Part shown: in pieces, positions 2,939 through 51,290 of the stretch
Numbering within the stretch: position 1 is the first letter of the stretch
Layout of the letters: each line of letters starts with the position of its first letter
Assembly (NCBI RefSeq): GCF_016812035.1
Contig: NZ_CP069178.1
Coordinates: 1,426,001-1,490,000 of the forward strand
DNA: 64,000 nt
Source of the DNA: Bulleidia sp. zg-1006
GTDB lineage: Bacteria > Bacillota_I > Bacilli_A > Erysipelotrichales > Erysipelotrichaceae
Reading direction: 5' to 3'
Translations under genes and position numbers: made by a program
Notes under the pieces: model-generated
Database searches by the model: none
What the model saw: the letters and a program-made list of their open reading frames with translations, nothing else
Told to the model about the DNA's origin: nothing

Positions 2939-3056
2939 ATTTGTGTATTGCTTTTATGGTTTTCATTAAAAACTATCAATCATAAACGAAAAAGTACAAA
3001 CACTTTCAGGGTATCCTCATTTCAATCGTGATAAGATTATTAAAAAGGAGATTATT

Positions 3057-4202
3057 ATGTATATAAAAAGTACAAAGATTTGGTTGGCCGGTTCCTTCTA
3101 TCCGGCAACTCTTCATTTAGAAGATTCTAAAATACTGGACATTCTTCCTTACGATTTTGAAACTTGTGATAAGGACTATGGTAATTTAAGAATTGTACCC
3201 GGTTTCATTGACATTCATTGTCATGGAGCTTATGGTTATGATACCAACTATGCACAAGAAGATGGATTAAAGAAATGGGCAAAGGGAATTGTCAAAGAAG
3301 GTGTAACCGGTTTCTTATCCACAACCATTACGGAATTAAATCCGGTTTTGACAAAGGCAGTTCAAAATGTTCGTAAAGTTAAGGAAAACCACATGGCCGG
3401 TCGCGATGGAGCGGATATTTTAGGAATTCATTTTGAAGGTCCTTATTTAGACATGAAGTACAAAGGAGCCCAACCTCCAGAAGCGATTGTGCAAGGAACG
3501 GTTGAGGAGTTTAAGCACTATCAAAAAGAGTCCGGCGATTTAATTAAGGTCATCACCTTGGCTCCTGAGCATGACCCAAATCATGCGTTAACGAAGTACG
3601 CTAGTCAACACGGTGTGGTTGTTTCCGTTGGTCATAGTGGTGCTACTTATAATGAAGCCTTGCTTGCCTTTGCAAATGGGGCAATGAGTATCACCCACAC
3701 TTTCAATGGTCAATCTCCATTCAATCATCGTGCTAATGGAGTGGCTGGTGCTGCCTTACGTTTAAGAAATGTGTATAGTGAAATCATTTGTGATGGTCAA
3801 CATTGCACCCCTGAAGCTTTAAATATTTTCTTTCAAACCAAAGGTAGTCATTATGCGGTTATGATTACGGATGCTTTAATGGCAAAGGGCTTACCAAAGG
3901 GAACGAAATTCCAATTTGGGGGTCATGAAGTAGAGATTGATAAAAAGGGCTTAGCACACTTAACCGAAACAGGTGGTATTGCCGGATCAACTTTGAGCTT
4001 AAATCAGGGTTTGCGAATCTTAGTGGAAGAAGCACTTGTGCCATTTGAGGCGGCTATCAATAGTTGTACCCTTAATCCGGCGACTTTACTTGGTATGGAT
4101 GATCATATTGGTAAGATTGTGGCAGGATATGATGCCGACCTTGTTGTATTGGGAGATGATTATTCCGTTGTCGATACGTATTGTAAAGGTATCAAACAAT
4201 AA
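3057..4202 (+). CDS. nagA: N-acetylglucosamine/N-acetylgalactosamine-6-phosphate deacetylase
   Basis: This 381-aa amidohydrolase removes acetate from GlcNAc-6-P (or GalNAc-6-P), giving the amino sugar phosphate. Visible landmarks are the metal site 'GFIDIHCHGAYGYD', 'HFEGPYL' with the conserved Glu, 'VGHSGATYNEA', 'THTFNGQSPFNHR' and the catalytic Asp in 'MITDALMAKG'. The length is standard for NagA/AgaA. It is divergent from agaS and EIIA, and its product is the substrate of AgaS-type or NagB-type enzymes. No nagB is in the window, so pairing with AgaS suggests the GalNAc branch (AgaA), but NagA and AgaA cannot be told apart by eye. Confidence 0.93.
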   Translation: MYIKSTKIWLAGSFYPATLHLEDSKILDILPYDFETCDKDYGNLRIVPGFIDIHCHGAYGYDTNYAQEDGLKKWAKGIVKEGVTGFLSTTITELNPVLTKAVQNVRKVKENHMAGRDGADILGIHFEGPYLDMKYKGAQPPEAIVQGTVEEFKHYQKESGDLIKVITLAPEHDPNHALTKYASQHGVVVSVGHSGATYNEALLAFANGAMSITHTFNGQSPFNHRANGVAGAALRLRNVYSEIICDGQHCTPEALNIFFQTKGSHYAVMITDALMAKGLPKGTKFQFGGHEVEIDKKGLAHLTETGGIAGSTLSLNQGLRILVEEALVPFEAAINSCTLNPATLLGMDDHIGKIVAGYDADLVVLGDDYSVVDTYCKGIKQ

Positions 4203-40163: not shown

Positions 40164-40893
40164 ATTTTTGAATACCTAATAGCTTTTCAGCATGTAGCAC
40201 TTCCTCTACCGTTGGTTGCGGGGTATCAGGGATAGGATAAGGAATACCGAGATGTTCATATTCCACTTTTGCCATGGCGTGATAAGGGAGTATTTCTACC
40301 CTTTCCACGTTTTCAAGTGTATCAATAAAGCTCTTTAACTGAATTAAATCTTCATCATTCGCTGTAATACCCGGCACCAATACATGTCTAATCCATACCG
40401 GTATCTTTCGATTACTTAAATCCTTTGCCAATGCCAAAATATTTTCATTTGACCAACCTGTTAATTTCTTATGAATAACCGGATTCATTTCTTTGATATC
40501 CAATAAAACCAAATCCGTCACCTGCATCAAACGTTCAAACTTGGCGTACCATTCAGATTCCGTTGTATAAGGATTACCGGAAGTGTCTAAAGTCGTATGA
40601 ATATGATATTTCTGACAAATTTCAAACAATTCAATTAAGAAATCCATTTGAACCAAAGCTTCTCCACCGGATACTGTAATACCGCCTCCATTTTTCCAAT
40701 AAGAACGATACCGAACGGCTTTCCGGAACACTTCCTCTGCACTCATTTCCATTCCTTGTTTAAACTTCCAAGTCTCCGGATTATGACAATATAAACAACG
40801 CATTGGGCAGCCTTGCATAAAGACAATAAAGCGAACCCCCGGTCCATCCACAGCACCAAAGCTTTCAAAAGAATGAATATAGCCTTTTGTCAT
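40162..40893 (-). CDS. pflA: Pyruvate formate-lyase activating enzyme
   Basis: This 243-aa radical SAM enzyme installs the glycyl radical on PflB. The [4Fe-4S] motif 'GCPMRCLYCHNPETW' uses Cys29, Cys33 and Cys36; 'GGGITVSGGEALVQ' is the SAM-binding GGE motif. It needs anaerobic conditions. It follows pflB after a terminator-like hairpin, so it may be made at lower level. Confidence 0.97.
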   Translation of the reverse strand: MTKGYIHSFESFGAVDGPGVRFIVFMQGCPMRCLYCHNPETWKFKQGMEMSAEEVFRKAVRYRSYWKNGGGITVSGGEALVQMDFLIELFEICQKYHIHTTLDTSGNPYTTESEWYAKFERLMQVTDLVLLDIKEMNPVIHKKLTGWSNENILALAKDLSNRKIPVWIRHVLVPGITANDEDLIQLKSFIDTLENVERVEILPYHAMAKVEYEHLGIPYPIPDTPQPTVEEVLHAEKLLGIQK

Positions 40894-40909
40894 TTGTCCT
40901 CCTGTTGAT

Positions 40910-48384: not shown

Positions 48385-48915
48385 TTATTTCACTAGTCTT
48401 TGAATCCTAGTCCATAACAACGGTACCACCAACAAACAAATCACCAGTGTTGCCAGATTGTACCAAGCGTTATAATTCAAAGAAAAAATCCACGCCGCGG
48501 TTGAACCGGCCGCTTCATTTTTAGGTGGCCAATAGTAAACACCCGATAAAACTTGAGAACCATATTTAATCAACATTGGTAACACAATAGCCAATCCATA
48601 TTTCTTAGGAAATACACTTGCCAGACCAATAATACCCAATGGCAAAACATAGTCTAAAAGAATTTGTACCGGATGAACAAACCACATTTCTATTCCCAGC
48701 ATAAATGTAATCAACCAAGATAAACCGGCCACTAAAACACCGGCTTGGAAACCTAAATGATAACTAGCCATAAACAACGCTATTAATTCAAGTTCAATAC
48801 TTCCACCTTGTGGCATCTTTAGGAAAGGAATTAAATTCCCCACAAACTTCAAAACAACATACAAAGCAATATACATCGCCACATACGTCAAAAACTTAAC
48901 CTTATCTCTCTGCAT
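48385..48915 (-). CDS. thiT: Thiamine ECF transporter S component ThiT
   Basis: ThiT binds thiamine and works with the shared ECF module. The 176-aa protein has six helices, with 'PQGGSIELELIALFMASYHLGF' near the start of helix 3 (quoted 20 only: 'PQGGSIELELIALFMASYHL') and the Trp/Tyr-rich 'SQVLSGVYYWPPKNEAAGST' segment. It lies directly behind a TPP riboswitch, which fixes the substrate class. Confidence 0.93.
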   Translation of the reverse strand: MQRDKVKFLTYVAMYIALYVVLKFVGNLIPFLKMPQGGSIELELIALFMASYHLGFQAGVLVAGLSWLITFMLGIEMWFVHPVQILLDYVLPLGIIGLASVFPKKYGLAIVLPMLIKYGSQVLSGVYYWPPKNEAAGSTAAWIFSLNYNAWYNLATLVICLLVVPLLWTRIQRLVK

Positions 48916-48934
48916 AAAAAAACACCTCCTAAAA

Positions 48935-49016
48935 GGCGTAGGACTTACTCCCTACGCTAGCATTACCTAGATCAGGTCAAAGGGTACATCTCAGCTTTCG
49001 CGCCCCTGTAACAAAG
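48935..49016 (-). promoter_or_regulatory. TPP riboswitch (THI element)
   Basis: The minus strand shows the conserved GGGGCGC, CTGAGATGTACCC and ACCTGATCTAGGTAATGC blocks, followed by GCGTAGGGA. After it GTAGGGAG and TCCTACGCC can pair, and the ribosome site AGGAGGTG is close behind, so translational control is likely. A TATAAT box lies at 49020-49025. Confidence 0.93.
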
Positions 49017-49046
49017 TTCATTATACACGATTTCAACAAAAAAGAA

Positions 49047-49180
49047 TAAAAAAAGGCCCTAGATAAAATCTAGGACCGGTACAACTCTGTATCGAGGAGG
49101 ACCAGAACTTGTACATTCTTCCAATCTGCCCTAAAGGAAGAGCCAACCACTCATATTTATCTATGAGTTAGTCTAGGCTA
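49047..49180 (-). ncRNA. Putative small RNA, promoter to terminator
   Basis: A strong promoter (49186-49214) and a terminator (49048-49077: GGTCCTAGAT/ATCTAGGGCC plus seven T) enclose about 130 nt on the minus strand with no coding potential. The RNA can form ACUCAUA/UAUGAGU and CUUCC/GGAAG hairpins and a long helix GUACAA/UUGUAC whose loop displays GUCCUCCUCGAUA (49090-49102). CCUCC is complementary to ribosome-binding sites, so a trans-acting translational repressor is possible. It does not match 4.5S, RNase P or tmRNA by eye. Confidence 0.65.
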
Positions 49181-49214
49181 ACTAGACTATACCAAAAGCT
49201 TTCCCCCTTGTCAA
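49169..49214 (-). promoter_or_regulatory. Small-RNA promoter with an inverted repeat over the -10
   Basis: TTGACA (49209-49214) and TATAGT (49186-49191) are 17 bases apart. TAGTCTAG/CTAGACTA, a perfect 8-bp inverted repeat with five-base centre (49169-49189), spans the end of the -10 and the start site, so a dimeric regulator may act there. Confidence 0.75.
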
Positions 49215-49334
49215 ACTATTTTTTCTAAAATGTTGAAATTTTTTTCTTCCCTCACGTTGTAACATGAAGTGCAACACAAAAGACATATTCATCTTATATA
49301 CTAAAGTCAATAAAAACAGCATTGTAGCTTTCCA

Positions 49335-49997: not shown

Positions 49998-50270
49998 GTG
50001 CCAAACATTAAATCAAGTACAGATTTACGTAATAATTACAATGAAATCTCTTCGTTTTGTCATGAAACAGGCGAACCTATCTTCGTTACCAAAAATGGTC
50101 GTGGAGACCTTGTTGTTATGAGCATTGATTTGTTCAATGAATTCATGGGAAGATATGAGCTATATCAACTTCTGGATCAAAGTGAATCTGATTTCACAAA
50201 CGGTCGTACCCTAACTTTTGATGACTCCATGAAAAGTTTAAGGGAGGGACTAAAAAATGGAACACTATAA
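49998..50270 (+). CDS. Phd/YefM-type antitoxin, module 1
   Basis: This 90-aa antitoxin starts with GTG after AGGAGG. The N-terminal part ('SSTDLRNNYNEISSFCHETG', 'EPIFVTKNGRGDLVVMSIDL') is a Phd/YefM DNA-binding fold; the C-terminal part wraps and blocks the toxin. It overlaps the toxin start by 14 bases. Confidence 0.92.
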   Translation: MPNIKSSTDLRNNYNEISSFCHETGEPIFVTKNGRGDLVVMSIDLFNEFMGRYELYQLLDQSESDFTNGRTLTFDDSMKSLREGLKNGTL

Positions 50271-50556
50271 GATACTTGTTTCTGAAACCTATCACAGAGA
50301 CCTAAAAGGTATAATTCATTATATTTCCCACAATTTAGATGCACCGTTTACTGCATCTGACTTACTTGACGAGATAGAATCTACTGTTTCTGCTCTATCT
50401 ACCATACCTCATCGCTATGGATTGGTGGATGATGCCTATCTGCACCGTAAAGAGTTTAGAAAATGTCTTGTTAAGAATTACATCATTTTCTATAAAGTGC
50501 ATGAAGAAAGTAAGACTGTAATGGTTCATCGAATTCTTCATGCAAGACAAAATTAG
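50257..50556 (+). CDS. RelE/ParE-family toxin, module 1
   Basis: This 99-aa toxin has the RelE/ParE fold: 'YKILVSETYHRDLKGIIHYI', 'SALSTIPHRYGLVDD', 'FRKCLVKNYIIFYKV' and 'MVHRILHARQN'. The last motif is the typical 'V(H/R)R(I/V)LHxRQ' end. It would cleave mRNA on ribosomes or poison gyrase; the two cannot be separated by eye. Confidence 0.92.
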   Translation: MEHYKILVSETYHRDLKGIIHYISHNLDAPFTASDLLDEIESTVSALSTIPHRYGLVDDAYLHRKEFRKCLVKNYIIFYKVHEESKTVMVHRILHARQN

Positions 50557-50694: not shown

Positions 50695-50719
50695 ATTGAT
50701 AGTAAAGGAGATTGATACT

Positions 50720-50992
50720 ATGATTAATATTCGTCCGGTTTCTGACTTAAGAAATAAATTCCCTGAAATAGAAGAAACTGTTTTAGGCTCAAACGCACCT
50801 GTATTTCTTACCAAAAACGGCTATGGAACAATGGTGCTAATGAGCGTTGAACAATATTCTGCACTTACTGATGATGTTGAAAGAAAGCTTGATGAAGCAG
50901 ACACTTTTGCTGCAAGCTCTTCCACCAGACTATCAAAAACGGAAGTCTTTAATAAAGTAAAGAGCAGTATTGATGAACAGGCGAACCTATAA
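50720..50992 (+). CDS. Phd/YefM-type antitoxin, module 2
   Basis: This 90-aa antitoxin has 'INIRPVSDLRNKFPEIEETV' and 'APVFLTKNGYGTMVLMSVEQ'. I choose the ATG at 50720 because AAAGGAG precedes it; a frame open to 50696 has no ribosome site. It is clearly related to the module 1 antitoxin but not identical. Confidence 0.9.
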   Translation: MINIRPVSDLRNKFPEIEETVLGSNAPVFLTKNGYGTMVLMSVEQYSALTDDVERKLDEADTFAASSSTRLSKTEVFNKVKSSIDEQANL

Positions 50993-51290
50993 ATTAACTT
51001 TTCTTCCGTTATTTGAAAAAGATTTACTTAAAATCACTGATTATATAACCAATACTTTACAAAATCCCGGTGCAGCTCACCGTTTAGTTGATGATATAGA
51101 ACTTGCAATTGTTAAAAGACTTGAAATGCCTCTTAGCTTTGTTCCCTATCAATCGTCAAAGATTAGGAAGCATCCTTACTACAGAATCAATGTAAGAAAC
51201 TTCTCCATTTTTTATGTCATAATTGATGACACTATGGAAGTGCGTAGACTTCTATATTCAAAACGAAATATTGATGAACTGTTGAAATAA
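50973..51290 (+). CDS. RelE/ParE-family toxin, module 2
   Basis: This 105-aa toxin shows 'YKLTFLPLFEKDLLKITDYI', 'AAHRLVDDIELAIVKRL', 'YYRINVRNFSIFYVI' and 'VRRLLYSKRNID', a RelE/ParE fold. It overlaps the antitoxin end. The Lys/Arg-rich beta end is present. The ATG at 50973 or the TTG at 50970 could start it. Confidence 0.9.
   Translation: MNRRTYKLTFLPLFEKDLLKITDYITNTLQNPGAAHRLVDDIELAIVKRLEMPLSFVPYQSSKIRKHPYYRINVRNFSIFYVIIDDTMEVRRLLYSKRNIDELLK

Follow-up and report, generated by a model that had tools for sequence, protein, structure and literature searches.

On the minus strand of the window, the 64,000-nucleotide stretch of Bulleidia sp. zg-1006 DNA analysed here, we found a small RNA gene at 49214-49048. 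It probably (at a rough probability of 0.78) encodes an iron-sparing trans-acting sRNA, which would be controlled by a repressor of the DtxR/MntR family and would block ribosome binding at the mRNAs of iron proteins. The original prediction was of a small RNA, itself regulated, that acts in trans on translation starts; this remains the best-supported reading, and it is now made specific by a DtxR-type box and by complementarity to iron-protein mRNAs. The anatomy of the gene, its conservation and covariation, the box with its other sites, and the enriched complementarity were all computed and are presented below.

The promoter is composed of a -35 hexamer TTGACA (49209-49214), found in most homologs, and a -10 hexamer TATAGT (49186-49191), separated by a 17-nt spacer; it matches the consensus at 11 of 12 positions and has in addition an upstream TG. 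From the -10 hexamer, the transcript is predicted to start at about 49179 and to cover about 130 nt (49048-49179). Three hairpins are predicted, P1 (49149-49168), which is short in the window copy, P2 (49117-49141), with a conserved loop containing GGGCA (49131-49127) and a covarying stem, and P3 (49079-49114), which exposes the anti-Shine-Dalgarno loop GUCCUCCUC (49102-49094). They are followed by an intrinsic terminator (49048-49077), with its stem at 49077-49055 and a run of seven T at 49054-49048; two terminator-like sites were observed in the region for 0.2 expected. The predicted fold of the RNA has an energy of -47.7 kcal/mol (z = -3.98), and none of the shuffled sequences was equally stable. 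In this prediction, the CCUCCUC of the P3 loop (GUCCUCCUCGAUA, 49102-49090) is unpaired, with a probability of at least 0.98 for its last six bases. The promoter, the structured RNA of about 130 nt, the strong terminator and the exposed CCUCC loop that had been claimed for this locus are therefore all present on the minus strand.

A divergent member of a known RNA class such as 6S had also been envisaged. When the window was searched against Rfam, the TPP riboswitch was the only match and none was obtained at the sRNA; no family matched the window sRNA or nine homologs. Models of SRP RNA, riboswitches and tRNA/tmRNA gave no match at the sRNA locus, apart from the neighbouring TPP riboswitch. 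Sub-threshold matches to suhB, NsiR1 and RT-6 were at chance level and were discarded. The 6S alternative is excluded, since RF00013 does not match here and the 6S candidate of this genome is located at G000:C1:915225-915370.

We then considered the homologs of the gene. Using two covariance models, the first of them built from three genomes (G012, G061 and G075), together with direct reading, we counted 20 distinct homologs. Almost all belong to the genus of the window genome (family Erysipelotrichaceae), in which several relatives are named Solobacterium sp., and they often lie upstream of thiT; these sequences are related, so that counts made on them are not independent. All 20 carry one or more GTTAGN6CTAAC-like boxes, the GTCCTCCT loop and a T-run, and many of them have two copies of the box, one within the promoter spacer and the other at the start site. 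The syntenic ortholog in G060, 85% identical and located upstream of a TPP riboswitch and thiT, has an unchanged -35 hexamer and, isolated bases apart, the same -10 hexamer, box, P2 loop and P3 loop as the window, and its terminator stem covaries, with substitutions on each side. For P2 and P3, in an alignment of nine sequences that was fitted to the model and is for this reason biased toward the structure, 90.7% of the cells are paired and the covariation score is 0.349 versus 0.152 for shuffled alignments; none of 500 shuffles reached 0.349, and the score was also above every slid control. The P1 stem changes on both sides between homologs, with retention of its long pyrimidine loop. The stems covary, promoter, loop and terminator are conserved in relatives, and the locus is a free-standing sRNA gene with its own promoter and terminator.

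The window copy is a shortened form of this RNA. In most homologs, P1 bears a pyrimidine-rich loop of 20-30 nt, CUCUUUCCAUCACACACUCCUUUA, which has been lost in the window copy together with the linker between P2 and P3. Probably because of these two losses, the covariance models R1 and R2 missed the shorter copy that this genome has at the locus; its predicted homology to the modelled sequences rests on synteny, on the similarity of promoter and box, and on loop identity. When 60 relatives were searched with the plain DNA sequence, only the genome itself was matched, because the nearest relative, G060, was absent from that set. We also observed that the P1 loop CUCUUUCCAUCACACACUCCUUUA, seen for instance in L052, L166, L308 and L313, is complementary along the full length of a ribosome-binding site (UAAAGGAGUGUGUGAUGGAAAGAG). 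In addition, GGGCA, which most homologs have in their P2 loop, is found again in many terminator loops (L300, L329, L330, L313), which raises the question of a protein site or a second pairing site.

The predicted start site is covered by a conserved palindrome, AGTTAG-N6-CTAACT, which is exact in the window, is kept in the homologs and forms a putative iron-repressor box (AGTTAGCCTAGACTAACT, 49166-49183, minus strand); within one mismatch, this pattern occurs once in the window for 0.16 expected. A perfect 8-bp inverted repeat had been pointed out on the promoter. This repeat is real (49169-49176 / 49182-49189) but it is not the conserved element: it is mismatched in the nearest relative and absent elsewhere, and we rejected it as the operator in favour of the overlapping AGTTAG-N6-CTAACT. 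The combination of TTGACA followed by AGTTAGN6CTAACT was detected in 13 of 195 genomes of the family, and the places that we read correspond to FeoA (L055), a DtxR-family repressor (L060), other metal-linked genes, and the sRNA itself in G061 and G075. In the genome studied here, with one mismatch allowed, feoA has the box, and so do ECF/CbiQ and ABC transporters, a flavodoxin and a DHH-type pyrophosphatase; the sites in G060 are at feoAB and FecCD as well as at an ECF-type gene. The box also occurs at feoB-linked genes, a ferredoxin gene and a DtxR-family gene. In 464 kb of sequence sampled from this genome, the exact GTTAGN6CTAAC was present only at feoA and at the sRNA (about 0.025 expected per 64 kb), and when two mismatches were allowed, no enrichment over a control pattern was observed.

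The box looks like the operator of an iron repressor of the DtxR/MntR family, iron being suggested because the box accompanies iron and metal genes. All six of the sRNA-bearing genomes tested have a short regulator of this family, whose nearest solved relatives, by sequence, are MntR proteins. In the genome of the window, its gene exists in two copies (G000:C1:222392 and 232103; L236 and L237), about 10 kb apart and encoding identical proteins, which is a recent duplication. The similarity of the regulator to MntR leads to another possibility, in which the same sRNA blocks the same Shine-Dalgarno sequences but the repressor senses manganese, so that the RNA would answer manganese shortage, like RsaC in S. 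aureus. One box-like site adjoins a gene for a DHH/CBS-type pyrophosphatase, a family in which manganese is often used. However, the neighbours of the box are genes for FeoA/FeoB ferrous-iron transport, FecCD, flavodoxin and ferredoxin, the predicted targets are iron proteins, and we consider a manganese response unlikely.

The targets of an iron-sparing sRNA were searched for among translation starts complementary to the P3 loop. In this genome (G000), a single start codon, that of rubrerythrin, has the whole 9-nt complement of the loop beside it (GAGGAGGAC..ATG). The rubrerythrin gene also bears GAGGAGGAC in G060, G061 and G075, extended to 11 nt in the last two; of the rubrerythrin genes of 30 relatives, only those of these four genomes, all sRNA-bearing, have it, and the 19 genomes without a detected sRNA all lack it. 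GAGGAGGA is present at rubrerythrin in 8 of the 11 genomes with the sRNA versus 3 of the 19 where none was detected (p = 0.003, a value that ignores relatedness and that takes the sRNA as absent from draft genomes, where this is not certain).

The 8-nt seed lies at the start codon of 23 genes in this genome, and seven of these encode iron proteins according to Pfam/NCBIfam: rubrerythrin, ferredoxin, PFOR, IspG, PflA, a desulfoferrodoxin-type superoxide reductase and an [FeFe] hydrogenase; FeoA is also on the list. The seed recurs at PFOR and rubrerythrin in four of four genomes, and at ferredoxin in three. The genome was covered by pattern searches and by a 400-kb sample of stretches; in 436 genes sampled without selection, only two proteins have a strict Fe-S motif; both are within the 10 seed matches and none is among the other 426. 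In a sample of G061, five genes with an Fe-S motif did not show lower pairing energies than the rest (p = 0.67). Within the window, the putative target is pflA (40165-40893, minus strand), encoding the Fe-S pyruvate formate-lyase activating enzyme, with the Shine-Dalgarno sequence AGGAGGAC ending at 40903. As to the pairing with AGGAGG-type starts that the original prediction had suggested, loop-complementary sites are enriched on iron-protein mRNAs, at their translation starts. We also noticed that the ferredoxin gene (G000:C1:1064445; L222 717 in G061) has both an upstream iron box and a seed-matching Shine-Dalgarno sequence, which suggests that it could be under double control.

Seed matches overlap the core of an ordinary Shine-Dalgarno sequence, and the non-iron genes that carry the seed include SSB, an antiporter, LicD, PTS and ribosomal protein genes. 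The anti-Shine-Dalgarno loop could then serve otherwise, in damping translation, binding a protein or acting on one mRNA, the enrichment in iron proteins reflecting the strong ribosome sites of highly expressed genes. The ordinary Shine-Dalgarno energy of the Fe-S genes is also somewhat stronger (n = 2), and the conserved loops GGGCA and CUCUUUCCAUCACACACUCCUUUA are left unexplained by the pairing considered above. Nevertheless, we find such a use rather improbable, since GAGGAGGAC at rubrerythrin deviates on both flanks from the AAGGAGGTG expected of an anti-Shine-Dalgarno match and fits the loop on both, the same classes of gene come up in several genomes, and the operator is common to the sRNA and to iron uptake genes.

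Downstream of the sRNA, on the same strand, lie the TPP riboswitch of thiT (48932-49017; RF00059, 63 bits), which is separate from it, and thiT itself (48385-48915), a syntenic anchor in many homologs. That the sRNA promoter reads through its terminator on some signal, so that the RNA would act on thiT in cis, as a leader or attenuator, is in keeping with its position just upstream of the riboswitch and thiT here, in G060, in G061 and in others, but this is very improbable given a strong, covarying terminator, a separate -10-like TATAAT just upstream of the riboswitch, the location of sRNA and thiT on different contigs in G004 and G070, and another ORF between them in G012. The pairing between the loop and thiT is weak as well (-12.3 kcal/mol, z = 0.4). 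In G004 and G070, a DUF3793-flavodoxin gene pair with iron boxes is directly upstream of thiT (L034 ~3017-3066, L035 ~307-348), the place of the sRNA in other genomes.

On the other side of the gene, upstream of the promoter, 61 nt (49240-49300) match sequences of a Streptococcus phage and of S. salivarius plasmids that lie next to an IS6-type transposase, and are probably an insertion-sequence remnant. In collections of phage and plasmid DNA, only this remnant was matched and the sRNA was not found; the exact loop pattern was not found in viral contigs either. Two tandem gene pairs resembling antitoxin/toxin genes (49998-50556 and 50696-51290; Phd/YefM- and RelE/ParE-like by eye) adjoin the sRNA.

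For the iron-sparing sRNA we propose the following scheme, in which expression of the RNA, identity and metal of the repressor, and repression of the targets are inferred. A DtxR/MntR-family repressor would bind AGTTAG-N6-CTAACT over the start site and keep the sRNA off as long as the metal (most likely iron) is abundant. Under iron scarcity, the repressor would leave its site and the sRNA would accumulate. Its P3 loop may then pair with GAGGAGGAC-type Shine-Dalgarno sequences on the mRNAs of rubrerythrin, PFOR, ferredoxin, [FeFe] hydrogenase, IspG, PflA and superoxide reductase, so that ribosomes would be blocked and iron spared. On balance, we lean towards a non-homologous sRNA family in which a repressor of the DtxR/MntR type, and not Fur, drives a Shine-Dalgarno-blocking iron-sparing response for iron proteins of strict anaerobes (rubrerythrin, PFOR, [FeFe] hydrogenase), and which in most relatives, with a second long loop complementary to the whole ribosome-binding site, would be a multi-loop anti-RBS regulator. 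In a literature search of limited scope, we found no report of such an sRNA in this group of Erysipelotrichaceae. Box, RNA and targets are defined enough for direct testing.

RyhB, FsrA and IsrR are unrelated RNAs that do an iron-sparing job in other bacteria, and iron-sparing sRNAs seem to have arisen independently many times. If our reading is true, this convergence would extend to a further case in gut Erysipelotrichaceae, with a DtxR-type regulator instead of Fur and with anaerobic iron proteins as targets. IsrR of Staphylococcus resembles the RNA described here: it is intergenic, it has a terminator, C-rich loops that are exposed and iron-repressor boxes in tandem, as predicted for many of the homologs, and it pairs with the Shine-Dalgarno sequences of Fe-S enzyme mRNAs, as predicted here (PMC9410917). 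However, IsrR has Fur boxes and not a DtxR-type box, it differs in sequence, hairpins and synteny, and its targets are nitrate respiration, formate dehydrogenase and glutamate synthase; compared with its published description (PMC9410917), the synteny with thiT and the P1-P3 layout set the window sRNA apart. FsrA of Bacillus subtilis is also iron-sparing and binds Shine-Dalgarno sequences through a C-rich motif (PMC9410917), but it is under Fur control and acts with the FbpABC chaperones, and the Rfam search gave no match in sequence or structure between it and the window sRNA. RsaC of S. aureus is repressed by MntR, a DtxR-family regulator (PMC9294342), but it responds to manganese and is processed from the mntABC 3' end, whereas the window sRNA is a free-standing gene. 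For the iron-sensing DtxR, Table 1 of PMC9294342 gives no cognate sRNA; the closest to a DtxR-controlled sRNA is MrsI (ncRv11846) of Mycobacterium, iron-sparing and with a box for IdeR, a DtxR-family iron repressor (PMC8628891). MrsI differs in being actinobacterial, in its 6-nt seed and in its targets hypF, bfrA and fprA, and no homology to it was found. FsrA, IsrR and MrsI are themselves unrelated to one another (PMC9410917, PMC8628891). As far as tested, no sign of homology between the window sRNA and these three RNAs appeared, and we infer that it works as they do.
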